This document shows positions 27,819-60,860 of a stretch of 64,000 nucleotides of DNA, piece after piece. Positions within the stretch are counted from its first letter, which is position 1. Each line of letters begins with the position of its first letter. Below the pieces are notes generated by a model, which saw only the letters and a list, made by a program, of their open reading frames with translations, was not told the origin of the DNA and did no database searches. The position numbers and the translations under genes are program-made. This DNA is from Desertivirga brevis (GTDB taxonomy: Bacteria; Bacteroidota; Bacteroidia; Sphingobacteriales; Sphingobacteriaceae): positions 62,001-126,000 of the forward strand of contig NZ_JAFEWF010000011.1 of assembly GCF_017355835.1 (NCBI RefSeq). Reading direction: 5' to 3'.

Positions 27819-28178
27819 TTAAGAAAGCGCAAATTGATTGACGATCTTCTCCAATTCGTCTAAATCAAAAGGCTTAGCAATATAAGCGTCAGCACCAGCC
27901 TTCTGTGAAAGAATTTCAACATCATTATTAGCAGAAAAGTAAATAACCGGGATATTGGAAAGCTCCGGATCTGCTTTTAGCAATTGAGTAGCCTTTATTC
28001 CTCCTGTGTCTGGAATCCAGTTGTCCATCAAGATAACATCGGGCCTTTTTTCAGAAATAATTTGTAAAATATTATTACAAGTTGTTCGCGTATGGACTTC
28101 CCACCCCTTCTCCGTCAGTAAATATGTGAGAATTTCTAAAATATCCACATCGTCATCAAAAATTACTATACGCTTCAT
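27819..28178 (-). CDS. single-domain response regulator (CheY-like receiver)
   Basis: A 119-residue stand-alone receiver. The acidic pocket is D8-D9-D10, the phosphoacceptor D52 (ILMDNW), and K102 lies in AKPF. With no output domain it must act by binding a partner or passing phosphate on. It lies 80 bases after the large kinase gene on the same strand, so it is the likely partner of that kinase and of the phytochrome upstream. Confidence 0.93.
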   Translation of the reverse strand: MKRIVIFDDDVDILEILTYLLTEKGWEVHTRTTCNNILQIISEKRPDVILMDNWIPDTGGIKATQLLKADPELSNIPVIYFSANNDVEILSQKAGADAYIAKPFDLDELEKIVNQFALS

Positions 28179-28258
28179 TCAAGCATAAAGCTATAACAAA
28201 TAAATGAACCTGCAAAAATTTAATTATTAATATATTTTGAAAGCAGAAATCTATTCTG

Positions 28259-31200
28259 TCAATTTGCAATAGGTAAATCAAACCAAAATGTAGATCCCTT
28301 ACCTTCTTCACTATAAACTCCTACATCGCCTTCATGGCGTTTAACAATTTCGGCGGAAATGAATAACCCTAAACCTAGTCCGGAAAACTTCTGTGAAGAC
28401 TCCTGAACCCTGAAGAATCTGTCGAAGACAAAATTTATCTTATCTTCCGGAATACCAATCCCAAAATCGGTAACATAAACTCTCACTTTATCCTCTTCTT
28501 TCCTGATATTTACCAGTACCTTCTCTGAATCGGGCGAGTACTTGATAGCGTTTGATAAGAAGTTAACAATAACTTGTTCCAGGCGATGCATGTCTCCCCA
28601 AACCGGAATCTCTTTTTCCCCCTCTACAAGAATTGTATGCCTGATTGAGTCGTTCTGCATTTGATCAACTGAGCTTTGTACAACCTCATCGATGTAGAAC
28701 CTGTCTTTCTCAAACTGTAATTTCCCAGCTTGGATCTTTGTTACATCCAATAAGTCCTCAACTAAGGCAGTAAGGCGATTTACTTGCTTGTTCGCTTTCT
28801 CAATGAAAGACTGGATCTTTTCCACCTCTACTTTCCGCGTACTTAAGCGTTCAGCAATTTGCAAAGATGCTTTCATACTGGTAATAGGTGTTTTAAGCTC
28901 ATGACTTGCAATACTCATAAACTCGTCCTTCTTCTGCATCAACAGCTTGGTAGCCTGCTGGGCAAGTTCTTGTTCCGTTATGTCCGTTAAACTGCCTATA
29001 TATCCTTCAAATGAGCCTCCAAACACAGGATTTGCCTGTGCAAGAACCCAGTGATACTCCCCTTTTATACTTCTAAGACGGAACTTGGAATAGAATATTT
29101 CTCTCGCCTCAAAGGCCTTCAAAAACTTATTATACTCCTTGTCTGCATCATCCTGATGAAAAGCTTTGCTCCACCCTAAACCCATACTGTCGTTAAAGCT
29201 AAGACCAGTGAATGAAATCCACTTTTTATTGACGTAGTTACAATCCCCTTTTTCATCAACTTTCCAGATCATGAAAGGAGATTGGTCTGCCAGTTGACGA
29301 AAATAGTCCTCACTTTCCTTCAAGGCTTCAGAAGCGGTCTTCTGATCATGAATGTCGGTACTCGTACCCACCCATATTACAATTTCCCCGTTATCATCCC
29401 TCTGGGGTATGCTTCTACTTAAATGCCAGCGATACTCTCCATCAGCGCCTAAGATCCTTCTCTCCATCTCGAAATCCAGTCCAGATTTGACAGACTGGAG
29501 CCATAGCTCTCTATTCTTTTCGCGATCTTCAGGATGTATAACATTAAGCCATTGCCAGCCTTCAAGCTCATGCATATCCTTGCCTGTATAATCCAGCCAA
29601 ACCTTGTTGAAATACTCCCCCAGTCCGTCGGGCTTTGCAGTCCATACCTTTTGTGGTACTGATTCGGCGAGGAACCTAAACCTGCCTTCATTTTTCTTAA
29701 TCTCCTGATTAGCCCTGATCATATCAGATACATCAAAAGCAAAGGTGGCAACTCCATCTACTATCCCCTCATTACTATACACGGGCTGATAGACGAAATC
29801 AAACCAGGCATCTTCTAAAATACCTGTTCTGTTCTTATCAAATCGGATATGGAATGCTTTTCCAAAGAATGGAATTCCGGTTTTGTATACTTGTTGAATC
29901 AACTCGTGTGACTCAGTACTCGCAGGCTTGTACTCTCCTATCAGATCTCTATTATTTTTACCAACAAGGTCAGACCTTTCGAAATAATCCATTGCCGTTT
30001 GATTTACGAATTCAACCCTTAGGTCCTCTCCTCGGCGAATGGAAATAAGCGCAGGGGCATTCATAAAAATACCTTTAAACTCATCCTGCTGTTTCTGAAT
30101 AATTCTTTGAAGTTCCTGTTCTTTTTTCTCCGCTTCCTTTTTTGCTGTAATATCGATGATATAGGTAACGGCAACAGCATCATCTTCGCTTACTGAGGCA
30201 GCCCCTAATAACACGCAAATCCGCGAACCGTCTTTGCGAAGATATTCTCCCTCGAAGGGTGGACATACACCACTAGTCCAAATTTGCTCTGCGGCGAGCC
30301 TGTTTTTTTCCAGGAATTCAGGCGGAGTAATTCTGCTCCAGGCAATGAGGCCATTCTTCAAATCTTCCTTGCTGTAGCCGATCATCTGCAAAAAAGCATC
30401 ATTTGCATTTATAATTACAGAATCTTTATTGGTAAAAAGCATCCCTATCATGTTTGATTCGAATACTTTACGGAATCGGCTTTCACTTTTGATAATTTGA
30501 TACTGGGCCTCTTTTAGTTCAGAAATATCTAACCTTGAACCGAGCATTCTATACGGCGTACCGTATTCATCCTGCAATAAATAACCCCTGTCTAGAATAC
30601 AAGCATAAGACCCATCGTTCTTTTCGAATCGATACTCCTCCGTCCATTGATCACTACCTTTGTTAATAACCGAATTAATACTTTTCCTTACACGATCCCT
30701 GTCTTCAGGATGGATTTTACTAATCCAAAAGTTACTACTATGGACCTCTTCAGAATCATCGTACCCGAATAGTTTAAAGAAGCTATCACTCCACCATAAA
30801 CTATTATTAACCAAATCCCAATCCCAAATAGCGTCGTTTGTTGCCTTGGAAACAAGTCTGAACCTTTCTTCAGAAATGCTAAGTTCCCGAGTTCTTTCAA
30901 TTACTTTGTCTTCAAGTTCAAGATTCAGCTGCTTGAGGTTTTCCCGCACCGAGATCAGTTCATTATAATTCTGTCTTAATTTCTGCTCTCCATCCCGCTT
31001 GTCAGTAATGTCAGTGAAGGTTGCCACAAAGCCGTCCATCATTTTAACTGCCACAACCTCGTACCAGCGATCACCGATACTAAGCTCTGTGTGAAGAGGG
31101 TTGCCTTTATCAACCACCTCCACACAACTCTTCGAAAAATCTGTGCCCGACAAGCTGGCTATCTCATTCAAGTGCTTACCTGCCTGATTTATACTTCCCC

Positions 31201-33850
31201 CTAATATGGTGTCAGAAGCATAATTACAAGTAAGGATAACAAAGTCCTCTATCTGGCTATTATAGTTCCTTACCGCTTTAAATGCGATAATAGAACTTAA
31301 ACTAGAGTTAAAGACCCCATTTATAATATTATTAAGATTTGCAATGGCCGAAATATCTACGAAGGTGATAATTGCACCGTCTGTCCGTTTATCCTGCCGG
31401 ACATACGGCATGATCCTCATCAGATAGCGTCTATCATTTGTAAGGATAATTTCCTTCTCTACGATTTCATCTGTGTCTATTACGTGAGCAATATCTCTTA
31501 GTAGATTTTCGTATCGGATATTCGTTGATATATGACTGATGGGCCGTCCAATGTCACTCTCTATCAGATTAACCAGTCTTAAAGCCGAGGCGTTAAACTT
31601 CCTTATATTCTGATTTCTATCGATAAATATCTGGCCTATATCAGTGCTTCTGAAATAGTTATTCAGATCATCATTCAGCTCGATCAGCTCTTTGATTTTA
31701 AGCTGATGCTCTGTGTTTAAAGTATGTAATTCCTCATTAAGCGACTGCAACTCCTCATTACTCGACTGCAATTCCTCATTGGCTGAAAGCAACTCTTCGT
31801 TGCTTGACTGCAATTCTTCGTTTGTGGTTTCCAGCCCCTCGACTGCCATCTGCAAATTGGAGCGGGTTTCATTTAACTCAGCCTCCAATTCAGCGATATA
31901 TTCGTTATGCTCGGCGCTAGGTATCGGATGACTTTCTTCTCTTACATGTATCTGGCTCAAGCTGTTTTCTCCCAGAACAACAAGAGTGTATGGCTTTCCC
32001 CGTAAAGGCTCTGCTGGCCTAACAGAGATACTCAAGAACAGGTCCGCTTGATCCTGCTTTACACGTACACTTTTAAGAAAAACTTTAGTCTCCTCTTTCC
32101 AACTTTTACGAATTGCGGTATTAAGAGCTACAGACAGTTCCTGAGGAACCATCTTGAGAATATTCAGGTTCAGCTTTTTCTCGGGAAGAGATAAGAATCG
32201 GCTGAAATTGCCTACTGATTCTTTAATTTCGTAATTCTTATCTATATAAAAACATACATAGCCAAAGTCATCTATAATAGCTTCGGTGAGATCTTCAGCC
32301 AACGGATTACTCTTTTTTTGTATACTCTTTGTTAAAGTTTGAGAAATTCTTGGTTGCTCGCCCTTATTATCCAGCTGCCTGTAAACTTCATATGGGGAGA
32401 TCCGGTTTTTTCCGATCTTACGGTAAATCTTCCACTTACTATTAACCTCATCCACCGAATCTTTAATGGATGAAGCTGTTTCACTTGTACCCAGGAAAAG
32501 ATAGCCGCCGGTATTAATAGAAAAATGAAGGGTATTCATAACTTTCTGCTGCAGCACGCTATTCATATAAATGAGCATATTCCTACAACTTACCAGATCA
32601 TTTTTAATAAAGGGAGGATCTTTAATTACATTATGTCTTGCGAAAACTATTTGTTTGCGAATACGCGGGATGATGGAATAGGATTTACCCTCCTTAACAA
32701 AATATTTTTTAAGTGTATCCTCATCTATGTCTTTCTCAATAGACTGAGGATATAGATTTTTAGCTGCAAAGCCAATACTGCTTTCGTCAATATCTGTTGC
32801 AAAAATTTTAACTTCCAGCAAACGGCGGAAACGTTGAATGTACTGGTCTATAAGAATAGCCAAAGAATAAGCCTCTTCTCCTGTACTACAGGCACAGATC
32901 CAAACTTTTAGAATCTCTCCATCCTGCTTATCATTCACAATATCGGGCAGAACTTGCTGGAATAAGGCTTCAAAAGCTTGCTTATCGCGAAAAAATCGTG
33001 TTACACCAATTAAAAAGTCTTTGCTAAGACTCTTGACCTCTTCAGGACTTTGTCTCAGCACTGCAACATAATCATCCAGCTTTTTGATGTTATGTTGACC
33101 CATTCTCTTTCCTATCCTCCTAATAATCGTAGGGGTTTTATAGTAATGGAAATCGTACCCGTGCGCCTTATGTATGAGGTTAAAAATATCATCCAGTAAA
33201 CGATCGTCTATCTTGCCCTTATTTAAAACAAGGATAGGACTCTCATTTACATGATTATAGATTTCTTCAGGGATCATCTCCGGAGGCAAAATCAAATCCG
33301 CATTGCCAGATGCTATTGCACTATTTGGCATACCATCAAATTTGGCGGTAACGGGATCCTGAACAATAACCATCCCTCCACAACTTTTGATCACTTCAAT
33401 CCCTCGGGTTCCGTCAGAGCCTGTTCCTGATAAGATAATCGCGATAGCTTTATCCTTCTTCTCCTGAGCTAATGAATAAAGAAAACGGTCAATTGCTGTG
33501 TTAGGCTGCTTGTCAGGAACTTTCTCTACCAGATGTAACTTCCCGTTATAAATAGTCATTAACTTATTATTGGGAATTACATAGATACATTCCTTTTGTA
33601 CCGTCATTTTATCTTCCGCTTCGAAGACCTTCATGTGGGTGTGTTTCGACACCAGCTCTACAAGCAGGCTTTTATAATCCGGTGAAAGGTGCTGTATAAC
33701 TATGAAAGAAAAGTTGGCATTGGTGGGCATATTGTCGAAGAATTCGTGAATAGCTTCCAGGCCACCGGCAGACGCACCAATAGCAACTACATAATGATCT
33801 AGCTTCGTAGAATTCCTTTTTATTAAACCTTCATTCACCGTCTTTTCCAT
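28259..33850 (-). CDS. CheB-CheR fusion multi-PAS sensor histidine kinase
   Basis: An 1863-residue protein. In order: a CheB methylesterase domain (to about 205; triad S27, H54, D146), a CheR methyltransferase domain (about 215-490, with SAM-binding WICACSTGEEAYSLA), a coiled coil of repeating EELQSSNEEL units (about 650-735), about seven PAS domains (740-1630), a HisKA domain with H1650 (SIASHELKTP) and an ATPase (about 1750-1860, NFLSNAIKYSP, GIGIPE, GLGLGLF). No receiver is attached. It may link methylation chemistry to kinase output. No other chemotaxis gene is in the window. It follows the phytochrome by 15 bases, so it may receive the light signal. Confidence 0.92.
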   Translation of the reverse strand: MEKTVNEGLIKRNSTKLDHYVVAIGASAGGLEAIHEFFDNMPTNANFSFIVIQHLSPDYKSLLVELVSKHTHMKVFEAEDKMTVQKECIYVIPNNKLMTIYNGKLHLVEKVPDKQPNTAIDRFLYSLAQEKKDKAIAIILSGTGSDGTRGIEVIKSCGGMVIVQDPVTAKFDGMPNSAIASGNADLILPPEMIPEEIYNHVNESPILVLNKGKIDDRLLDDIFNLIHKAHGYDFHYYKTPTIIRRIGKRMGQHNIKKLDDYVAVLRQSPEEVKSLSKDFLIGVTRFFRDKQAFEALFQQVLPDIVNDKQDGEILKVWICACSTGEEAYSLAILIDQYIQRFRRLLEVKIFATDIDESSIGFAAKNLYPQSIEKDIDEDTLKKYFVKEGKSYSIIPRIRKQIVFARHNVIKDPPFIKNDLVSCRNMLIYMNSVLQQKVMNTLHFSINTGGYLFLGTSETASSIKDSVDEVNSKWKIYRKIGKNRISPYEVYRQLDNKGEQPRISQTLTKSIQKKSNPLAEDLTEAIIDDFGYVCFYIDKNYEIKESVGNFSRFLSLPEKKLNLNILKMVPQELSVALNTAIRKSWKEETKVFLKSVRVKQDQADLFLSISVRPAEPLRGKPYTLVVLGENSLSQIHVREESHPIPSAEHNEYIAELEAELNETRSNLQMAVEGLETTNEELQSSNEELLSANEELQSSNEELQSLNEELHTLNTEHQLKIKELIELNDDLNNYFRSTDIGQIFIDRNQNIRKFNASALRLVNLIESDIGRPISHISTNIRYENLLRDIAHVIDTDEIVEKEIILTNDRRYLMRIMPYVRQDKRTDGAIITFVDISAIANLNNIINGVFNSSLSSIIAFKAVRNYNSQIEDFVILTCNYASDTILGGSINQAGKHLNEIASLSGTDFSKSCVEVVDKGNPLHTELSIGDRWYEVVAVKMMDGFVATFTDITDKRDGEQKLRQNYNELISVRENLKQLNLELEDKVIERTRELSISEERFRLVSKATNDAIWDWDLVNNSLWWSDSFFKLFGYDDSEEVHSSNFWISKIHPEDRDRVRKSINSVINKGSDQWTEEYRFEKNDGSYACILDRGYLLQDEYGTPYRMLGSRLDISELKEAQYQIIKSESRFRKVFESNMIGMLFTNKDSVIINANDAFLQMIGYSKEDLKNGLIAWSRITPPEFLEKNRLAAEQIWTSGVCPPFEGEYLRKDGSRICVLLGAASVSEDDAVAVTYIIDITAKKEAEKKEQELQRIIQKQQDEFKGIFMNAPALISIRRGEDLRVEFVNQTAMDYFERSDLVGKNNRDLIGEYKPASTESHELIQQVYKTGIPFFGKAFHIRFDKNRTGILEDAWFDFVYQPVYSNEGIVDGVATFAFDVSDMIRANQEIKKNEGRFRFLAESVPQKVWTAKPDGLGEYFNKVWLDYTGKDMHELEGWQWLNVIHPEDREKNRELWLQSVKSGLDFEMERRILGADGEYRWHLSRSIPQRDDNGEIVIWVGTSTDIHDQKTASEALKESEDYFRQLADQSPFMIWKVDEKGDCNYVNKKWISFTGLSFNDSMGLGWSKAFHQDDADKEYNKFLKAFEAREIFYSKFRLRSIKGEYHWVLAQANPVFGGSFEGYIGSLTDITEQELAQQATKLLMQKKDEFMSIASHELKTPITSMKASLQIAERLSTRKVEVEKIQSFIEKANKQVNRLTALVEDLLDVTKIQAGKLQFEKDRFYIDEVVQSSVDQMQNDSIRHTILVEGEKEIPVWGDMHRLEQVIVNFLSNAIKYSPDSEKVLVNIRKEEDKVRVYVTDFGIGIPEDKINFVFDRFFRVQESSQKFSGLGLGLFISAEIVKRHEGDVGVYSEEGKGSTFWFDLPIAN

Positions 33851-33865
33851 AGATGTAAAGCCGCC

Positions 33866-35383
33866 CTAACTATATATGTATTTAGTAGAATATTCAAATA
33901 TAAAGCTTCTAAGGCTTTCTGCAACCCTTACTTCTTCTCCTGACCATGGCAACGAGGTCCCTTTAACTGTTTCCTGCCATATTGAAAACGAATTTCTAGG
34001 GTGATACTTTTTTCCATCTGGCTCAAACCTAATGGCTTCGCTTGGATTTCCACCCCAGCTGACCGTTGTTTGTACTTCCGGCCGAAAAAGCAAAAGAAAA
34101 TCTTCATTTCGGCCACCGATTGGGATGGCAAGCAATCCACTGACCTCTTCTATAAAATTTTGCGCGGGCTCGAAAGTGCTGGAAAGATTGCTTTCCACAA
34201 AGGCCTCTGAAATCATTTTATGCTGGAGCCAAAACACGAGATGCTTTACATCTTCAACTTGTGGCGTTTTTCCCTGCAAATGAACTTTCCCCTTATAAAC
34301 CAGAGCGAGACCACCTGCACTAAATAATTCTAGGAGTTCGTTATCTTTTTTAACCAGCCCCGAAAATAGCTCATTCACACTGTAAATACCATCTAGAACC
34401 AACCTCTTTTTCTCCCATAGCGTACTCTTATACTCAAACTGCTCCTGATATAACATAGAGGTAATCTTAGATGAGATCAACTCAGACAAAAGTTCAAAGA
34501 CAGAACAGACCTCGTAATTGAGATACTTTGCTTCCCTGTGATGGCAGGATATTAATGCCCACAACTGGCCGTTGCGAATTATACGGATGGACATAGATGC
34601 TTTTATTCCCATGTTCTCCATATATTCCAAATGTACCCCTGCAACACTCCGAAGATTACAATCGGTAAGATCAATAAAAGAATTGGTGAGCGGATTAATC
34701 ACCGGATATACCTTCACGGGCTTGTCCTCTCGATTTGGTATTAAGCGATAAGTATTCTTATGGTATAATGCACGAGCTTGCTTTGGGATATCAGATGCAG
34801 GGAACTTAAGCCCAATGTAAGGTTCCATATCCAACTCCCTTTCCTCGGCAATCACTGTTCCGTTCCAATCTGAATCGAATTGATACATCAAAACACGGTC
34901 AAAACCAGCGAGTTTCCTTAGGGCAGAAACAGAAATCTGGCAAATGGTTTCAATTGAGCTTGCTGAATTAACTTCCGCCATTACATATTTCATCTCCTGA
35001 TAAACCTCAAGAAACGACTTTCGGGTATCCGCCTTTTCCAATTCAGCCACCAGCAAGGTTTCCTTCATGTGAACAAGAGCAATATACTCAACCTCAATGT
35101 CTCCTATGCTGATATTCAAATTAAGAGGTATCTTGTCAGAAATGCCTTTAGCAAAGCTTGCCTCAAGCATTTTTATTTGCTCCTTACTTACAAAATCAGA
35201 AAGATTTGAATCAACAACATCGGCTACATCCTTTCCGAACACTTCCGAGACGTTTTCGCTTGCCTGAACAATCTTTAAATCTTCCTTACTTAACACAACT
35301 AAGTATCCATAAGGTTGAATTTGATTAATGTGATGAAGCGGCAAACTACCACAAAACTCCGAGTCATAATTTTTTTTGCTCAT
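33866..35383 (-). CDS. bacteriophytochrome photosensory core without kinase
   Basis: A 505-residue red/far-red light receptor with PAS, GAF and PHY domains. The biliverdin-attachment Cys is C11, spaced before IQPYG as in known bacteriophytochromes. The GAF domain has FPASDIP (D198) and H251; the PHY tongue keeps PRNSFSIW. The chain stops right after the PHY domain, so it has no histidine kinase and must signal to a partner. I chose the ATG at 35383; it overlaps the heme oxygenase stop as ATGA, which implies translational coupling. The next gene is a large kinase. Confidence 0.9.
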   Translation of the reverse strand: MSKKNYDSEFCGSLPLHHINQIQPYGYLVVLSKEDLKIVQASENVSEVFGKDVADVVDSNLSDFVSKEQIKMLEASFAKGISDKIPLNLNISIGDIEVEYIALVHMKETLLVAELEKADTRKSFLEVYQEMKYVMAEVNSASSIETICQISVSALRKLAGFDRVLMYQFDSDWNGTVIAEERELDMEPYIGLKFPASDIPKQARALYHKNTYRLIPNREDKPVKVYPVINPLTNSFIDLTDCNLRSVAGVHLEYMENMGIKASMSIRIIRNGQLWALISCHHREAKYLNYEVCSVFELLSELISSKITSMLYQEQFEYKSTLWEKKRLVLDGIYSVNELFSGLVKKDNELLELFSAGGLALVYKGKVHLQGKTPQVEDVKHLVFWLQHKMISEAFVESNLSSTFEPAQNFIEEVSGLLAIPIGGRNEDFLLLFRPEVQTTVSWGGNPSEAIRFEPDGKKYHPRNSFSIWQETVKGTSLPWSGEEVRVAESLRSFIFEYSTKYIYS

Positions 35384-35931
35384 GCTAGCCAATCTTTAAA
35401 TTTTATAAAGGTCTCATCCGCACTCTCTATTACGATTTTCCAGACTTCTTCTGGTAAAGCATCCAACACACCTTTAAATTTGTCCCACATCTCTCTCGTT
35501 CTGTCTCCATAGGAATAGAAAAAAGAAACACCTTCGGATGCAGGTATTCCTAGTCTCTCTGTTACCATTTTAGTAATGATTGTTCCACCAAGCGTAGAAC
35601 CTTCAAGTACATATAACGCCCCAAGTGCCTCGTACGTGTTCTTTATCTCAGGTAAGTCTTCACACAAAACAACCCTGGGATCTGCCCTAAATTGCCGTAA
35701 ATCTACCATCAGGTCGTCAGATTTACGTCTTTCAGCATAATCAGGTACAATGTTTATATCAAGATTTTTACTTATTTTCTCTTCAAGCGGCTTAATGTAG
35801 CCATAAAACTTCCTTAAAATCTCAACGTAGTCGCCTTCAACAGATAGTGACTTTAACTTGCCAATGAGCAGCTTTTCCAGTTGTTGATGTGATTCAATAG
35901 TTTTATCTTTAAGGACTAAACTCAATTTCAT
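35380..35931 (-). CDS. bphO: biliverdin-producing heme oxygenase
   Basis: Opens heme to biliverdin, carbon monoxide and iron, supplying the phytochrome chromophore. The 183-residue protein has the proximal histidine H15 (TIESHQQLEKLL) and the distal-helix glycine segment in VLEGSTLGGTII. I chose the ATG at 35931 instead of a TTG nine codons upstream. Its stop codon overlaps the phytochrome start, and the pairing of the two genes gives strong support for both calls. Confidence 0.9.
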   Translation of the reverse strand: MKLSLVLKDKTIESHQQLEKLLIGKLKSLSVEGDYVEILRKFYGYIKPLEEKISKNLDINIVPDYAERRKSDDLMVDLRQFRADPRVVLCEDLPEIKNTYEALGALYVLEGSTLGGTIITKMVTERLGIPASEGVSFFYSYGDRTREMWDKFKGVLDALPEEVWKIVIESADETFIKFKDWLA

Positions 35932-36085: not shown

Positions 36086-36313
36086 TTATATTCTATATCT
36101 TAAAGATAAGGAGTTACCAATGGCCCGAACTAACTCATCTACTATAGGTAAAGTGTTCTCTTTCTGCTTCCACCCCCGATCATCCTTATAAAGCGTAACT
36201 GTATTACCTTGTAGTAAAATTTCAGACTCCACAACTCTGTTGTTCTGATTTAATTTTAATAACTGATAATGAAATTTAGCGCCCTCCAGGCTTATAGTAA
36301 AAACCTGCCCCAT
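36086..36313 (-). CDS. small hypothetical protein
   Basis: A 75-residue soluble protein that I do not recognise. It reads as a short antiparallel sheet (VFTISLEGAKFHYQLLKL, ESEILLQGNTVTLYKDDRGW) and a final helix (LPIVDELVRAIGNSL). It follows the DUF4112 gene by 87 bases on the same strand. Confidence 0.5.
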   Translation of the reverse strand: MGQVFTISLEGAKFHYQLLKLNQNNRVVESEILLQGNTVTLYKDDRGWKQKENTLPIVDELVRAIGNSLSLRYRI

Positions 36314-36900: not shown

Positions 36901-37854
36901 TCAGTTCCGAAAGTTTTGCGTCACCATCAAACCATAAATTCCTCCGTCAAGTACTCCTATCCCCACCCTTCCAAAGGATCTATTAAGAATATTTGCACGA
37001 TGTCCAGGAGAGTTCATAAGACCTTCGTGGGCGATATTTAAAGTCTGAGCCAAAGCCAGATTTTCTCCCGCTGTTAAAAATCTCACCCTCGCAGCACGCA
37101 TACGATCAAAAGGAGTTTTGTCTTCGGGAGTATAGTGCGAAAAATATCCCCTTGCAAACATATCAGCCGAATGCGCTCTTGCCACCACTGCGATCTCACG
37201 ATCTTCCTTAAGTGGCCGAAGATTAGCTTTAGCCCTCTCCGCATTTATCAATACCAACATCCTGGCTTCCAAATCCCGACGCACCCTCGAACGCTCTACC
37301 GTAAAATTTAATTTAATGAATTTATCGTCTTTCTTGTTAAGTGTTAGCAGGGGCCCGGCTTCCTTCTCTAACTCTTCAATATAAGGAGAGATCGAAAGGT
37401 GAATCTTTTCAAGTCCCGGTGTTAGTTGAGACATCATCCAGCTTTTTTCAGCAGCAGACTTTAGCGAGGGACTAAAAGGAAACAAGATCAATAAAGACGT
37501 TATCAATAGCAAATAAACTAATCCCGTAAAACCTCCAGGAACACTTCCGAGTATCTTATTAAATTTTGATGTATGATAAATTGAAGGAACTTTTGAAAGG
37601 CCGAAGTTAGCGATTGCTGAAAGGGCTAGGCGGGCAATGACAATGGCAAGAATAAAAGAAACAGGTAAAACCCAAAAACCTGAGGCGATAAACTTCTGGA
37701 TAAAACTTGATATATAAGGATAGCAAAGGAAAGCAATTACCAGGCCCGCACCCCACATGAACACTTCAACTATCCCAATCAAAAAGCCTTTTAAAATCCC
37801 TTGCCAAACAGAAAAGACAAGTATCAGCACTAAAATGAGATCCAAATAATTCAT
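36901..37854 (-). CDS. CvpA-like membrane domain fused to CAP (SCP/PR1) domain
   Basis: A 317-residue protein. Residues 1-165 have four membrane helices like CvpA (colicin V production), starting MNYLDLILVLILVFSVWQG. Residues 195-317 form a CAP domain: LINAERAKANLRPL, the metal-site histidine in ARAHSADM, GYFSHYTPEDKTP, GENLA, and NSPGHRANILN. The CAP part most likely faces the periplasm and may bind or cut wall or lipid material; in bacteria this is not well known. It lies in a minus-strand run with DUF4112 and the sugar genes, separated from the latter by 69 bases. Confidence 0.87.
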   Translation of the reverse strand: MNYLDLILVLILVFSVWQGILKGFLIGIVEVFMWGAGLVIAFLCYPYISSFIQKFIASGFWVLPVSFILAIVIARLALSAIANFGLSKVPSIYHTSKFNKILGSVPGGFTGLVYLLLITSLLILFPFSPSLKSAAEKSWMMSQLTPGLEKIHLSISPYIEELEKEAGPLLTLNKKDDKFIKLNFTVERSRVRRDLEARMLVLINAERAKANLRPLKEDREIAVVARAHSADMFARGYFSHYTPEDKTPFDRMRAARVRFLTAGENLALAQTLNIAHEGLMNSPGHRANILNRSFGRVGIGVLDGGIYGLMVTQNFRN

Positions 37855-53098: not shown

Positions 53099-55843
53099 AT
53101 GCATTTAGAAAGGGTAAAGGAGCATCCAAAATATAAAAGCATTCCTGAAAAGTATAAAAATTTGTTTGTAGAGATCCTTGAGGATTATAACGATTTCTAC
53201 GTCCAGAGTTCAGGATTAGCAGATCCGGATGTTATAGAGAGAAGGCTTGCAGCAATTCTAGGTAGTCTTAGACCTGACATTATAAAACCTAATGATTCCG
53301 GTACAGAAAATTTGAATAACGCTCCGGAACTCTTAACGCTGTTAGAACGAGAGGTCAATTCCATTAAACTTCAATTGAATGAGCTTGAAAAAGAGGCGAA
53401 GCACCGGGATGCGATGCTTTCTATCGCCAAGGCTGGAAGTTGGGAAGTAATGTTATCAGGCGACGTTTATAGCAATCAAAATTATTGGTCCGAGGAGCTT
53501 TTTCGAATATTAGGAATAGAACCAGGAAGCGTCGACCTAAATTATGATACTTATCTTAGTTTCATTCACCCCGAAGATATTTTATATTTTGAAACGGAAG
53601 TTCACCGCGCAATAGAGCTAAGAGGCCGTTATGATATTGAGTATCGGATTGTCTTGAAAAATGGATCACTGAAGTATGTAAGAGATATTGGAGAGGTAGT
53701 TGTAGATAGCGTTTCCGGCAGGGCTCCCAAGTTTGTTGGAATAACTTTCGATATTACTGAATTTAAGACAGCTCAATTTGAGGTTAAGAGAAGTGAGATC
53801 AAGTATAAATCTCTATTCGAAAACAACCCTGATATGGTTTACTATCAAAACAGGGATGGATATATCACTGATATCAACAATTCTGTCAAAACTCTATATG
53901 GTCTTCCCCCGGAAGCTGTTATTAATAAGCATTATTCATTCTTTGTTGAACCAGATAAAGTAGAAGCGTCTGAAAAACAATTACAAATTACCCTAAGGGG
54001 GCAACCGGTAACTTTTGAACAAGAACTCTTTATTCCTTCTTTAAGTAAAAGATGCTTCATTCATGTATCTAAAATTCCTGTTATTGTTGATGGAGAGGTC
54101 ATTGGGATCCATAACATATCTAAAGACATTACAGATCTAAAATTAAGTTTGGAAAGGGTACAGGTGCAAACAGAAGAGCTTCAGGCAATTAATGAGGAAC
54201 TGCAGGCACAATCCGAGGAGTTGACTGTTCAAACAGAGAATTTAAACGAACTAAACAGAGCCCTTTACGAAGAAAGGGCAAAGGCAGATAAAGCAAATCA
54301 GGCAAAAAGCTCGTTCCTGGCAACGATGAGTCATGAAATTCGTACGCCAATGAATGGGGTAATTGGTATGGCTAAGCTTTTAACCTCAACGTCTTTAAAT
54401 AGCGAGCAGGAGGAATATGTAGATATAATAAGCAAAAGCGGAGATGCATTACTATCATTAATTAACGATATTCTGGATTATTCTAAGATAGAAGCTGGTC
54501 ATCTCGAGTTAGAGCACCACGATTTTAATCTGACTGAATGCATTGAATCAGTAATGGATGTCTTTGCTGTCAAAGCTGCAGATAAAGGTCTAGACTTGAT
54601 TTATACCACTGATCCCGCAATCAATTCCAATATCATGGGAGACAGTCATCGTTTGCGCCAGGTCTTGATTAATTTAATAAATAACGCAATTAAGTTTACT
54701 GTTTCGGGAGAGGTGTTGGTGAAAGTAGGCCTGGAACAATCTAAAGGGAAAGGGCTTTTTCTTAATTTCAACGTGATTGATACAGGGATTGGAATCCCCG
54801 AAAATAAAATTTCCCGTCTTTTCAAAGCATTTTCCCAGGTAGATTCATCAACAACCAGAAAATATGGAGGGACAGGTCTTGGCCTAGTTATATCAGAACG
54901 GCTTGTTAATCTAATGGGAGGAAAAATAGAAGTAAACAGCATTGTGGGTGCTGGAAGTACTTTTTCATTCGATATTCCATATCAGCCGTCAGAAAGCATA
55001 AAAAGTAATATGCGGATCCTTTCAGAGGATATTAAGAACAAAAGAATACTTATTGTTAATGATAATCGGAACTATCTTGATATTTTAAAAGCCCAGCTAG
55101 AGCATTGGGGATTGGTTGCAATATGCAAAGAAACACCTAAAGAAGCGCTTGAAATCGTCTCGCAAAACACCCGTTTCGACCTTATTTTTACAGATAAAGT
55201 GCTTCCGGAAATGGATGGAGTGGAACTGGCAGAAGCGATTAAGAAGATCCAGCCGTATGTTCCTATCGTTCTTTTTAGCACCGTAGGAGATGTGACCCGA
55301 ACGAAGTTTTCGCATTTATTTTCCTCCGTACTAACGAAGCCGGTCAAGGAAAATTTGCTGTACAATACTATTCAGACTGAACTTAATAAAAGCAAAACTG
55401 GTTTAAAGGGACCAGATATACCAAATATTTCAAATGTTCCTACCCCTTTCTCCGAAGATTTTGCTGAAATCTATCCTCAGAGAATATTGGTAGCAGAGGA
55501 TAACCTGATTAATCAGAAGCTAATATCAAGAGTTCTAAATAAGTTAGGCTATTCCCTTGATATGGCAAATAACGGAGTCGAAGCAGTTAACATTCTTAAG
55601 CTAAAAGAATATGATCTAGTTTTGATGGATGTATTGATGCCTGATATGGACGGATTGGAGGCAACTAAAGTGATCCGGTCAATGAAACTTGAACAACCAC
55701 GGATTGTAGCTATGACTGCTAATGCCTCGGCTGAGGACCGGGAAGAATGTTTAAATGCTGGAATGGACGATTTTGCAACAAAACCTTTAAAACTCGAAGA
55801 CCTTAAAGCGATATTGAAGCAGACCTTACTGCATAAAGTCTAA
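53099..55843 (+). CDS. hybrid sensor histidine kinase with two PAS and two receiver domains
   Basis: A 914-residue cytosolic hybrid kinase. An N-terminal helical region (1-110) precedes two PAS domains (about 110-225 and 235-350), a coiled coil, HisKA with H412 (ATMSHEIRTPMNG), an ATPase (NLINNAIKFT, GIGIPE, GGTGLGLVIS), then two receivers: the first with D699 (IFTDKVLPEMDG) and an altered acidic pocket (IVNDN), the second canonical with D844 (VLMDVLMPDMDG). The second is the more likely phosphoacceptor. No membrane segment; signal unknown. No output regulator is adjacent. Confidence 0.93.
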   Translation: MHLERVKEHPKYKSIPEKYKNLFVEILEDYNDFYVQSSGLADPDVIERRLAAILGSLRPDIIKPNDSGTENLNNAPELLTLLEREVNSIKLQLNELEKEAKHRDAMLSIAKAGSWEVMLSGDVYSNQNYWSEELFRILGIEPGSVDLNYDTYLSFIHPEDILYFETEVHRAIELRGRYDIEYRIVLKNGSLKYVRDIGEVVVDSVSGRAPKFVGITFDITEFKTAQFEVKRSEIKYKSLFENNPDMVYYQNRDGYITDINNSVKTLYGLPPEAVINKHYSFFVEPDKVEASEKQLQITLRGQPVTFEQELFIPSLSKRCFIHVSKIPVIVDGEVIGIHNISKDITDLKLSLERVQVQTEELQAINEELQAQSEELTVQTENLNELNRALYEERAKADKANQAKSSFLATMSHEIRTPMNGVIGMAKLLTSTSLNSEQEEYVDIISKSGDALLSLINDILDYSKIEAGHLELEHHDFNLTECIESVMDVFAVKAADKGLDLIYTTDPAINSNIMGDSHRLRQVLINLINNAIKFTVSGEVLVKVGLEQSKGKGLFLNFNVIDTGIGIPENKISRLFKAFSQVDSSTTRKYGGTGLGLVISERLVNLMGGKIEVNSIVGAGSTFSFDIPYQPSESIKSNMRILSEDIKNKRILIVNDNRNYLDILKAQLEHWGLVAICKETPKEALEIVSQNTRFDLIFTDKVLPEMDGVELAEAIKKIQPYVPIVLFSTVGDVTRTKFSHLFSSVLTKPVKENLLYNTIQTELNKSKTGLKGPDIPNISNVPTPFSEDFAEIYPQRILVAEDNLINQKLISRVLNKLGYSLDMANNGVEAVNILKLKEYDLVLMDVLMPDMDGLEATKVIRSMKLEQPRIVAMTANASAEDREECLNAGMDDFATKPLKLEDLKAILKQTLLHKV

Positions 55844-57321: not shown

Positions 57322-58457
57322 TACTTCTGCTGAATTAGTAGAAGTTATCGATACTATTACATATTAGAACAGCTTTAATAGTAAAGTAGCATGTATTTTC
57401 TTCCCCATATTGGGTAAAAGGCAAAATAGGAGTTCTCAACTCTAAAGATGGATGAGTTGTAGCTGCTAATAGAGAAGCTTTCATTTTGCGAGTTGTTATA
57501 CCAAGCAAGTTAGATTTATGGAAAAGCTGATTCCTTTTGGTATAATTTTGGCATTCGTATATACATTCTACATTTTACCTATGAAAAAGAAGGAACTGGT
57601 CTTAATCGGTTCCTTTTAATTTTCCATTTAAATCATCTGCACACTTCAAATACTAAGACCACTTATTCTAGTCCTGTTATCATTACCGAAAAGGATCATT
57701 TAAATAGCGGAGAGCTTACAGCTTCTAATCCCGACAGACAATTAAGGTAAAGTCAGAAGAATGAAAGAGTCTGATACATTAGGCATACCTGCATTATTGA
57801 ACTTATCATTAGTTTAAAAATGGGCTGGAATACTCCAGCCCTACATCTACCTAAAAACAATATTGCCTGGAAAGCAATGCTGCTAGTACTTCAAATCAAC
57901 TTTTAAGGTTACATTTTTCCTGCTTATTTGTAAGAAAAGAATTGATTCTGCATAATTCTGGAAATCAAATAGTAAGGATGTACAATAACGATTGTATCAG
58001 GGGAGAATATCAAAATGGATATATTTCCTAAAGCCCGGTCTTTAAGTAGCTTCTGAACTTGGACCTACTCCAAATTTTTGGCAATTAAAAACTTTCTTAA
58101 TAAAACCATAACACCAAACTTATCTATTCCTGGAAATCATATTTATAAAATTAGGGAATTATTAAAAACAATATAAAACACCACCGCTTTAATAATCAAT
58201 TTTCTAAGGGTAAAGTAAATAGAAAAAGGGAGTTGTTCCCATAACACTCCCTTTTTGATATAACCAGCAAGGGAGGTTTGGGATTTTATATTCCTTTTGC
58301 TATTCTCAATTATCCTTACAGCACTTAATCAAATCTCCTTTTCTCTTAATGCATTATTCAGTTATACGAGGTTCAAACAAGTTTTGGCTTAAATGATGAT
58401 TTCTAAACTAACAAAGCTACTTTTACCCCTACTGGATAAGGATTGAGTACAATAGAA
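57322..58457. other. 1.1-kb gap with three hairpins and no gene
   Basis: I find no supported protein gene; the best frame (57520-57621) codes for only 33 residues. Three hairpins stand out: 57590-57615 (AAGGAAC/GTTCCTT then TTTTAATTTT), 57822-57841 (perfect 8-bp GGGCTGGA/TCCAGCCC), and 58223-58256 (perfect 11-bp AAAAAGGGAGT/ACTCCCTTTTT). Two of them look like terminators, which suggests short transcripts or the trace of lost genes. Confidence 0.6.
58223..58256 (+). terminator. strong hairpin, likely terminator
   Basis: Perfect 11-bp stem AAAAAGGGAGT (58223-58233) and ACTCCCTTTTT (58246-58256). No gene lies just upstream on the plus strand, so what it terminates is not known. Confidence 0.7.
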
Positions 58458-60860
58458 ATGGATTCGAGGTTAAATAGGATAAGACAATTGGAAGACGAGC
58501 ACGGATTTGGACTAGTTGGGACATACCTACTGGACTATAAGAAAAAAATAGTATATGCGGATAAAACACTAAGTACGATGTACGGATTGGCGTTTGATGA
58601 AGCAGGTATTCCACTAGCCGACTTCTTAAAAAACATCGATGAAGAGGACCTTCAACGTGCCAATCAGTTAAGAGAGGCTCAAATAAATAAAAGTGAGCCC
58701 TACCAAATTGAATACAGGGTTAGAATTTCACCTGAGAAAACGAAGTGGGTTTTAGCAAGAGCAAAGGCGAAGATGGTGGATGGTGAACTTTTTTATGAGG
58801 GTATAGTAGTTGACGTAACTTCAGGCAAAGAGGCTGACATTGCACTTCAAACGCAAAATAAACTGATTAAGACAATCACCGACAATGCGACCTCTGCTTT
58901 GTTTATGATGAACGACAAAGGATATTGTACTTTTATGAATCCAGCTGCCGAAACTATGTTTGGGTATTCCTTAACGGAGATTAAAAGTAAACCTCTGCAC
59001 TATTTAATTCACCATCATTATCCGGATGGCCGGGAGTTTCCAATGGAAGAATGCCCCCTTGATAGGGCTTTACCTCAAAACTTTGAAATGCGTGCGCACG
59101 AAGATCTTTTTTTTCGTAAAGACGGAACTTCTCTCCCTGTGCTCTGCGCTGCCAGCCCGATCTTCGAAGATGGAATTCCAGTAGCAACAGTGATCGAAGT
59201 CCGGGATATTTCAGAGCAGAAGAAAGCAAATATGCTCCTTCAGGCTCATGCAGAACGCCTTGAAATCTTAAACTCGATAGGTTTATCAATTTCAGGTAGT
59301 TTAGAATTGCAGGAAATACTACAAAAGGTTACCGATGCAGTAACTAAGCTGACAGGTGCCAATTTTGGGGCTTTCTTCTATAATACGATTAATGCATCTG
59401 GCGAGGCTTTTTTGCTATATACATTGTCGGGAGCCCCGAGAGAGGCCTTTGAAAAGTTTGGCACACCGCGCAATACTGCTGTTTTTCATCCCACTTTTGC
59501 CGGCGACGGCGTAGTCAGGGTAGCTGATATCACTAAGGATCCACGCTATGGCAAAAATGCGCCGAATAATGGAATGCCTAAAGGGCATCTTCCGGTTGTT
59601 AGCTATCTGGCTGTACCGGTAATTTCTAAGTCCGGTAAAGTTATTGGAGGACTATTTTTGGGCCATAAGGATGCAGATGTATTTACCGCAGAACACGAGA
59701 ATTTAGTCCTGGGGCTTGCTTCGCAAGCGGCAATAGCCCTGGATAATGCAAAATTATACGAAGAGGTAAAAGAACTTAGTTTAAAAAAAGATGAGTTTTT
59801 GTCTATCGCCAGTCATGAACTTAAAACTCCCCTTACGAGTATAAAAGCCTTCAACCAGTTGATGCAGCGCACGAAAGACTCCACAAAGTTGCCGGATTTT
59901 GTTCAAAAGTCTGCCGAGCATATTTGCAGATTGGAGAAGCTTATTAATGACCTTTTGGATGTTAGTAAGATCAATGCCGGAAAGATGCAATATAGTATGG
60001 AGCAATTCAACTTTAGGCAGATTATTACAGATTGTGTGGAGAGTGTTCAGCACCTTGCTCCCTCTCATAAAATTTCTGTTGAAAATGTTGTTGACGTTCT
60101 ATATACGGGCGATCGTTTGAGGCTGGAACAGGTATTAAATAACTTTTTGACCAATGCGATTAAATACTCTCCTGGTGGGGAAAGGGTATTAGTTAACAGC
60201 ACATTACAAGGTAATAATCTCATAGTTTCGGTACAGGATTTTGGTATCGGAATTCCTCAGGACCATCTGGATAAATTATTTGACAGATACTACAGGGTAG
60301 ATAACACCTCAATGCGGTTTGAAGGCTTGGGATTAGGTTTATTTATATCATCTGAAATATTGAAGCGCCATGGTGGCGACTTTTGGATTGAAAGTGAACA
60401 GGGGAAAGGCTCAACCTTCTTTTTCAGGCTGCCACTTGAAAGGCAGGGGGAAGCGGAGGTAACAGAGACAGAGATCTCTTATAAAGATTCTTCTATTACC
60501 ATTCTATATAACCAGCAGGACGATCGAATTGAAGTGGATTGGAAAGGCTTTCAAAATTTTTCTTCGGTCCAGAACGGCTGTATGAAAATGTTGGAAATAT
60601 TAAAAAAGAATAAGTGTTATAAAGTAATTAATGATAACAGAAATGTTCAGGGAACCTGGTCAGAAGCAGCAGAATGGGTAGGTCGGGAATGGTTTCCTAT
60701 GATGGAAGAGGCTGGTCTCCGTTACTTTGCATGGATCTTCTCTCCCAGCACTTTCAGCCAATTATCCGCTAAAAAGAGCGTAGATATAAAAGAGGGTAGG
60801 GTGATCACCGAATTTTTTACAGATATCAGTTTGGCTGAGAAATGGTTGGACGGGAAATGA
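58458..60860 (+). CDS. PAS-PAS-GAF sensor histidine kinase with C-terminal STAS-like domain
   Basis: An 800-residue cytosolic kinase. In order: two PAS domains (about 15-125 and 135-255), GAF (280-435), HisKA with H453 (SIASHELKTPLTSI), ATPase (NFLTNAIKYSPGG, GIGIPQ, GLGLGLFIS; about 550-660), and an extra 120-residue domain (680-800) with a DDRIEVDWKGF start and a KCYKVINDNRNVQG strand-turn, like SpoIIAA/STAS-type domains seen in Bacteroidota. The last domain may bind a partner. I used the ATG at 58458; a TTG five codons upstream is possible. A 14-bp perfect terminator stem follows. Confidence 0.88.
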   Translation: MDSRLNRIRQLEDEHGFGLVGTYLLDYKKKIVYADKTLSTMYGLAFDEAGIPLADFLKNIDEEDLQRANQLREAQINKSEPYQIEYRVRISPEKTKWVLARAKAKMVDGELFYEGIVVDVTSGKEADIALQTQNKLIKTITDNATSALFMMNDKGYCTFMNPAAETMFGYSLTEIKSKPLHYLIHHHYPDGREFPMEECPLDRALPQNFEMRAHEDLFFRKDGTSLPVLCAASPIFEDGIPVATVIEVRDISEQKKANMLLQAHAERLEILNSIGLSISGSLELQEILQKVTDAVTKLTGANFGAFFYNTINASGEAFLLYTLSGAPREAFEKFGTPRNTAVFHPTFAGDGVVRVADITKDPRYGKNAPNNGMPKGHLPVVSYLAVPVISKSGKVIGGLFLGHKDADVFTAEHENLVLGLASQAAIALDNAKLYEEVKELSLKKDEFLSIASHELKTPLTSIKAFNQLMQRTKDSTKLPDFVQKSAEHICRLEKLINDLLDVSKINAGKMQYSMEQFNFRQIITDCVESVQHLAPSHKISVENVVDVLYTGDRLRLEQVLNNFLTNAIKYSPGGERVLVNSTLQGNNLIVSVQDFGIGIPQDHLDKLFDRYYRVDNTSMRFEGLGLGLFISSEILKRHGGDFWIESEQGKGSTFFFRLPLERQGEAEVTETEISYKDSSITILYNQQDDRIEVDWKGFQNFSSVQNGCMKMLEILKKNKCYKVINDNRNVQGTWSEAAEWVGREWFPMMEEAGLRYFAWIFSPSTFSQLSAKKSVDIKEGRVITEFFTDISLAEKWLDGK

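Follow-up and report, generated by a model that had tools for sequence, protein, structure and literature searches.

Gene content of the locus

We analyzed a window of 64,000 nucleotides from Desertivirga brevis (contig NZ_JAFEWF010000011.1), the whole stretch of DNA under study here, in which four minus-strand genes at positions 27819-35931 encode a heme oxygenase, a phytochrome, a histidine kinase, and a receiver. The heme oxygenase (35380-35931, minus strand; 183 amino acids) matches PF01126 with 50 bits against a cut-off of 23, and its best match among solved heme oxygenases reaches an E value of only 1.8e-5. Its frame overlaps that of the phytochrome (33866-35383, minus strand; 505 amino acids) as ATGA, the kinase gene (28259-33850, minus strand; 1,863 amino acids) begins 15 bases beyond the phytochrome, and the receiver gene (27819-28178, minus strand; 119 amino acids) lies 80 bases beyond the kinase. 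The receiver consists of a PF00072 domain over residues 4-113 without an output domain, which fits a single-domain response regulator. The nearest genome found, that of Desertivirga arenae, carries counterparts at 88% for the phytochrome, 93% for the kinase, 97% for the receiver, and 70% for the heme oxygenase.

A phytochrome without a kinase

Phytochromes are textbook one-chain light switches. The D. brevis phytochrome contains PAS_2 (residues 14-117), GAF (144-304), and PHY (331-498) domains and nothing beyond; Pfam identified no C-terminal histidine kinase on the same chain, where the PHY domain ends at residue 498 of 505, and this separates the protein from a canonical BphP. Furthermore, it scores 284 bits with NF041576, the NCBIfam model of kinase-bearing BphP, for which the cut-off is 1040. 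Its domain order and motifs are those of a bacteriophytochrome photosensory core: C11, PASDIP (195), H251, H281/H282, and a PRNSF tongue (462), to which we assign the presumed roles of bilin cysteine, conserved histidines, and tongue. The closest solved chains are the phytochrome photosensory cores FiDCB, BphP, and Cph1 (best E value 2e-98). We found cysteine in the C11 column in all 44 rows scored as short, one of which is a fragment of a broken long gene (L103). A truncated or broken canonical phytochrome gene was ruled out since lengths of approximately 495-558 amino acids recur in related loci and the cysteine column is intact. An earlier note on this DNA had described four close-packed minus-strand genes with the overlap and spacings given above, and a phytochrome that keeps C11, PASDIP, the histidines, and PRNSF and ends after PHY; the gene coordinates bear out the first description, and Pfam together with motif comparison bears out the second.

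Most kinase-less phytochromes stop 2-10 residues beyond an aromatic motif, which in the window is RSFIFEY (residues 492-498; 33890-33910, minus strand), ending seven residues short of the C-terminus. A loose form of the motif is present in 61 of 70 kinase-less phytochromes (strict form, 42 of 70) and in none of 33 kinase-bearing ones. It is missing from L149 and L150, whose partner has changed or gone, and from 7 of the 68 others (Fisher p = 0.015, one among several patterns inspected, uncorrected and with relatedness ignored). The predicted structure places a helix at residues 482-503 with low confidence (mean predicted local distance difference test score, pLDDT, 63.9 over five sequences), too weak for claims about the fold. 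On its sequence pattern, we regard the motif as a candidate docking helix, that is, a candidate contact with the kinase and no more.

A CheB-CheR fusion histidine kinase

The kinase carries, on one chain and in this order, CheB, CheR_N, CheR, several PAS, HisKA, and HATPase_c domains by Pfam; its domains and motifs are those of a CheB-CheR fusion histidine kinase. The CheB methylesterase domain (PF01339) spans residues 22-197 (33260-33787, minus strand) and the CheR methyltransferase domain (PF03705 and PF01739) residues 219-474 (32429-33196, minus strand). A predicted single long helix follows at residues 645-735 (31646-31918, minus strand), then a PAS array at residues 729-1624 (28979-31666, minus strand) that comprises about seven PAS domains when two extra weak matches are included, and finally the HisKA and HATPase_c catalytic core at residues 1641-1862 (28265-28930, minus strand) with the H-box SHELKTP. 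Across 42 kinases, GASAGG of CheB and CRNMLIY of CheR are present in all 42 and SHELKTP in 40, the remaining two having gaps at this position; which residues of the CheB, CheR, and HisKA motifs are catalytic we take from general knowledge of these families. The region between CheR and the helix (residues 490-660; 31871-32383, minus strand) has no Pfam match above cut-off, and residues 490-650 are poorly conserved (mean identity 0.512).

Conservation of the phytochrome-kinase pair

We next considered whether phytochrome and kinase remain together in relatives. The first family, that of the closest relative, was represented by a 399-genome sample. Phytochromes were counted at 383 bits or more to that of the window (the next hit scored 255 bits, and a G083 row with 31% identity and 749 amino acids was excluded), and the kinase lineage was defined as 77 CheB-CheR genes with at least 56% identity in CheB-CheR, the next class among the matches listed reaching 49% at most. 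Only the best 3-4 candidates per genome were scored, and further copies are possible. All 75 phytochromes lie directly upstream of a lineage kinase, and 75 of the 77 lineage kinases are preceded by a phytochrome. In the surroundings of 42 short phytochromes, for the most part 20 kb each, a same-strand gene that starts with CheB lies directly downstream in 42 of 42, and 41 of these genes reach CheR; the contig of L081 ends after CheB. No CheB-CheR gene was found beside ordinary phytochrome-kinase loci, either in 21 loci of the first family (approximately 20 kb each) or in 11 of the second (5-6 kb each).

A phylum sample of 395 genomes, again scored for the best 3-4 candidates per genome, contained 37 genomes with a match at E 1e-40 or better, and short frames occurred only in G001 (two), G053, and G433. 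The family of G433, which we infer to be the Chitinophagaceae, served as the second family. Here, 13 phytochromes of the type were found in 146 genomes (13 of 24 rows, at 410 bits or more; the other 11 are frames of 733-825 amino acids), and 10 of the 13 adjoin a CheB-CheR kinase. The three exceptions are L149, where the phytochrome stands beside a PAS kinase, L151, where it is fused to a kinase, and L150, which has no adjoining kinase. Phytochrome identities across the two families fall to about 40%. The H-box reads SHELKTP in 55 of 55 linked first-family kinases and SHDL[QK]EP in 9 of 10 second-family ones.

With the window excluded, 62 of 69 linked loci contain none of six window flank genes, indicating that the pair outlives its surroundings. 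Since the phytochrome-kinase order recurs in all 75 related loci while the flanks differ, the close packing of these genes is not due to chance. One genome contains two paralogous pairs, L001 and L080, with a separate kinase in each. Spread by plasmids was rejected: 134 plasmid records match (15 among the matches listed), all at less than 60% identity. As a separate observation, a CheB-CheR match at G888:C1:6810531-6811955 counts two stops (one TAG, one TAA), which probably reflect the upstream edge of the match; the frame is open in L159, with 1,504 amino acids.

The outer members of the locus are more loosely associated. These were scored in a set of 70 loci that includes the window and was chosen partly by score rather than at random, and in which L003 and L082 look like one contig. 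The heme oxygenase gene lies upstream in the same orientation in 23 loci, is divergent in 5, and lies downstream in 1. A short receiver gene comes after the kinase on its strand in 21 loci and is convergent in 1. Of 79 genomes with the kinase type, 56 were searched for PF01126 and 55 of these contain it; the exception is G037, a genome that also has no PHY match. The heme oxygenase is likely the source of biliverdin. The complete order of the window occurs in 17 of the 70 loci, window included. The earlier note had suggested a search of genomes for the four-gene order and had named the lack of a conserved order in related genomes as evidence against its pathway. The phytochrome-kinase core of that order is conserved (75 of 75, and 10 of 13 in the second family), and the full order is limited to the minority of loci just given; the same pairing supports the further claim that sensing and kinase activity reside on separate proteins with the adjoining kinase as partner.

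Partner changes and a fused phytochrome kinase

Two second-family loci depart from the usual arrangement. At L149 the pair is kept, and the partner aligns with the related CheB-CheR kinase of L162 over the PAS-kinase region alone (residues 864-1502 of the latter). L151 (6687-8945) encodes phytochrome and kinase core on one chain, with the heme oxygenase gene directly after it and a receiver gene upstream on the other strand. The best matches of the L151 core are the CheB-CheR kinases of its own family and L149, at 44% or less, and no ordinary phytochrome kinase is among the 16 listed.

We examined the origin of L151 with several trees, two of them built from hand-picked rows (42 of 103 sensor rows and 47 of 159 kinase-core rows). 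A re-fusion deep inside the clade of short phytochromes (support 0.991; core 0.995) was dropped, since ordinary second-family phytochromes were absent from the trees that suggested it. Once 11 of these were included, one tree sets L151 outside the shorts (70 shorts alone, 0.875). The 42-row sensor tree groups 24 shorts and L151 with a bootstrap of 93, the place of L151 within the group having only 39, and a third tree joins L151 with L112 and L162 (97.9), with the shorts as one clade not rejected (p = 0.49). L151 is thus either a re-fusion or an older fused form, its sensor belonging to the split group or being its nearest sister. On either reading, L151 links this sensor with a kinase. In the sensor tree, L173-L176 and L178 are the kinase-bearing phytochromes closest to the split group (bootstrap 100), and they are possibly the stock that gave rise to the split system. 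Since the sensor and core trees agree, our data suggest that the kinase core of these phytochromes and that of the second-family CheB-CheR kinases have a common origin.

A probable split bacteriophytochrome system

On the basis of gene content, motifs, conserved pairing, and the loss and variant loci, we consider it probable that the locus encodes a split bacteriophytochrome two-component system, in which a separate light-input subunit acts on the downstream kinase. From the sequences we infer bilin binding, physical contact, the direction of the signal, phosphotransfer, and self-methylation. The heme oxygenase would make biliverdin, which the phytochrome would take up at C11 and which would allow it to photoconvert between red and far-red forms. 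The kinase-less phytochrome would then serve as the light-input subunit of the downstream kinase, probably through contact of its truncated exit helix, marked by the aromatic C-terminal motif, with the N-terminal or PAS part of the kinase. The kinase may combine light with other inputs via its PAS array, autophosphorylate on the HisKA histidine, and pass the phosphate to the single-domain receiver, which some relatives encode beside the kinase. CheR and CheB would probably tune the kinase by reversible methylation of its own glutamate-rich helix.

Several observations weigh against a split system of this kind. L108 and L109 lie at the window's site, with the same CvpA-CAP, DUF4112, and SIMPL neighbours, and both have lost the phytochrome while their kinases (1,873 and 1,869 amino acids) and receivers remain open. 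L108 (3783-3916) lacks the heme oxygenase and retains short remnants of both phytochrome ends; in L109 (9574-9946) the deletion starts within the heme oxygenase and extends almost to the end of the phytochrome. The tree of the CheB-CheR part places L108 with the window and L001 (0.921) and L109 with L002 (1.0); since the deletions and the tree places both differ, the losses look independent. Branch lengths are 0.055 for L109 against 0.050 for its sister and 0.21 for L108 against about 0.14 for the window lineage, and the kinase seems to be still in use after phytochrome loss. Light is therefore probably not the only input of the kinase. At L110 the phytochrome frame is broken and the kinase is open. 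L153 and L154 are second-family lineage kinases without a phytochrome in the stretch fetched (2.1 kb upstream for L154). Conversely, L150 (6227-11062) holds a heme oxygenase and a kinase-less phytochrome without an adjoining kinase; next come a 158-amino-acid frame with no Pfam hit and a GH127 glycosidase gene. The two families also have different classes of kinase core. The correlation between the members of the pair is 0.83, a value computed without species control and with L081, L082, and L058 left out. A phytochrome fused to CheB-CheR itself was looked for and rejected, none being among the 20 hits of a word-based search with limited lengths. The grouping of the L151 core with CheB-CheR cores (0.916) has a bootstrap of only 54-64, and the ordinary phytochrome kinases L173-L176 and L178 join the L151 and CheB-CheR cores at 0.992 and 96.

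The retained kinases of L108 and L109 would also be expected if the kinase mainly served other signals and the phytochrome used an unlinked kinase, the neighbourhood being kept for co-expression only. The genome of L001 contains an ordinary phytochrome-kinase of 743 amino acids (frame 754), and heme oxygenase and receiver are frequently non-adjacent. We nevertheless judge this explanation unlikely: 75 of 75 phytochromes pair with the same kinase lineage while flanks change, the paralogous pairs L001 and L080 each have their own kinase, and L149 and L151 still place the sensor with a histidine kinase.

Still less probable, in our estimate, is that the phytochrome acts on the CheB-CheR half, as light-regulated methylation of a target elsewhere, rather than on the kinase. 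The L149 partner keeps PAS-HisKA-HATPase without CheB, CheR, or coil, the L151 phytochrome sits directly on a kinase core, and no methyl-accepting receptor was found among the part of the window genes scanned with Pfam. In favour of a CheB-CheR target, CheB and CheR motifs are kept, and between the families the CheB-CheR front is constant and the class of the kinase core is not. A functionless pairing, due to common ancestry and operon inertia only, which the relatedness of the loci (75 pairs are not 75 independent events) and the occurrence of losses would allow, seems very improbable given pairing in two families, identities down to about 40%, and 62 of 69 loci without window flank genes.

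A glutamate-rich helix and proposed self-methylation

The long helix of the kinase comprises 91 residues after CheR and the variable stretch, and it is predicted with pLDDT values of 93-95 over its repeats (model, four sequences). The repeats, of the form EExx[SA][SA], are EELQSS at 678, EELLSA at 685, and EELQSS at 692. Within the kinase, conservation peaks over the 42 residues 675-716, at a mean identity of 0.974 compared to 0.878 for the best stretch elsewhere; these figures come from 40 rows, all first-family kinases, with L082 and L058 left out. Conservation of the other domains is 0.80 for CheB, 0.71 for CheR, 0.73 for HisKA, and 0.71 for HATPase. We take the heptads (EExx[AST][AST], seven apart) to resemble chemoreceptor methylation sites, of whose two-sided consensus only half fits.

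We propose, as an unproven reading of the sequence, that the kinase's own CheR and CheB methylate its helix. The fuller scheme, in which a detachable phytochrome light subunit docks on the kinase and CheR and CheB reversibly methylate the heptads so that the light response adapts, is tentative, and we regard it as possible rather than probable. A coil special to phytochrome-linked kinases was ruled out since unlinked CheB-CheR kinases have the coil too. All 20 unlinked CheB-CheR frames of L129-L148, 18 of which include a kinase core, show a heptad coil with NEEL, those of L144 and L148 in a looser form; among 67 kinases that lack CheR, 4 have loose NEEL coils. Because the coil is common to the unlinked kinases, self-methylation, if real, belongs to the wider CheB-CheR kinase family, and the self-methylating design would extend to this wider set. 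At L149, CheB, CheR, and coil are all gone, and one deletion could suffice to explain their joint absence. L140 (5107-6924) has a CheR-less kinase frame with a NEEL coil, which immediately precedes a CheB-CheR kinase and lies close to where the retrieved sequence stops; it could be a cut or broken tandem copy.

No methylation target of CheB-CheR fusion kinases turned up in the open literature searched, and the helix beside CheR is a testable candidate substrate. A precedent for a methylated kinase helix is RsbM/RsbK of Bacillus cereus, in which a methyltransferase methylates the signalling helix of a sensor histidine kinase (PMC4574943). RsbM and RsbK are separate proteins, and the authors describe a cognate methylesterase as absent (PMC4574943), whereas here CheB, CheR, and helix are on one chain.

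Relation to known light-signalling systems

The D. brevis locus shares with canonical bphO-bphP-receiver systems the PAS-GAF-PHY sensor with N-terminal Cys, DIP, histidines, and PRxSF tongue, as well as a heme oxygenase and a receiver nearby. In contrast to canonical BphP, which carries its own histidine kinase, the kinase here is a separate CheB-CheR-PAS protein. Proteins named in their source records as 'two-component system CheB/CheR fusion protein', the CheB-CheR fusion histidine kinases, have the same CheB-CheR-coil-kinase layout; unlike other CheB-CheR kinases, the window lineage is phytochrome-linked in 75 of 77 cases. In archaeal sensory rhodopsin II-HtrII, a photoreceptor passes the light signal on to a separate, methyl-accepting type of partner (PMC3274258). 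The likeness is in working only, and no homology is claimed: that system consists of a membrane rhodopsin with CheA/CheW, whereas here a phytochrome is combined with a fused kinase. A treatment of Bacteroidetes phytochromes, according to its methods, took sensor and kinase parts both from each sequence (PMC4422448).

No description of a kinase-less phytochrome paired with a CheB-CheR kinase was found in the open literature (titles and abstract openings, with subscription journals mostly outside). The parts are known families, and the new element is their split, conserved arrangement. The conserved split of switch and kinase allows tests of how a light signal passes between proteins, for which L149 (without CheB-CheR), L151 (fused), and L108 and L109 (sensor deleted) are natural controls. 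Detachable light subunits may also find use in optogenetics.

Neighbouring genes in the window

Upstream of the heme oxygenase gene lies a 75-amino-acid frame (36086-36313, minus strand). It was present in 7 of the 8 loci first tested, including the phytochrome-deleted L108 and L109, but only 5 of 69 linked loci have it, in each case upstream and on the strand of the phytochrome; this frame is a local neighbour outside the module. Beyond it, a gene at 36901-37854 (minus strand) encodes Colicin_V (CvpA-like) and CAP domains in one 317-amino-acid protein, matched at the same site in the nearest relatives and found in 3 of 69 linked loci. The window contains two more multi-PAS histidine kinases, at 53099-55843 and 58443-60860 (plus strand), the first of which is a hybrid with two receiver matches.

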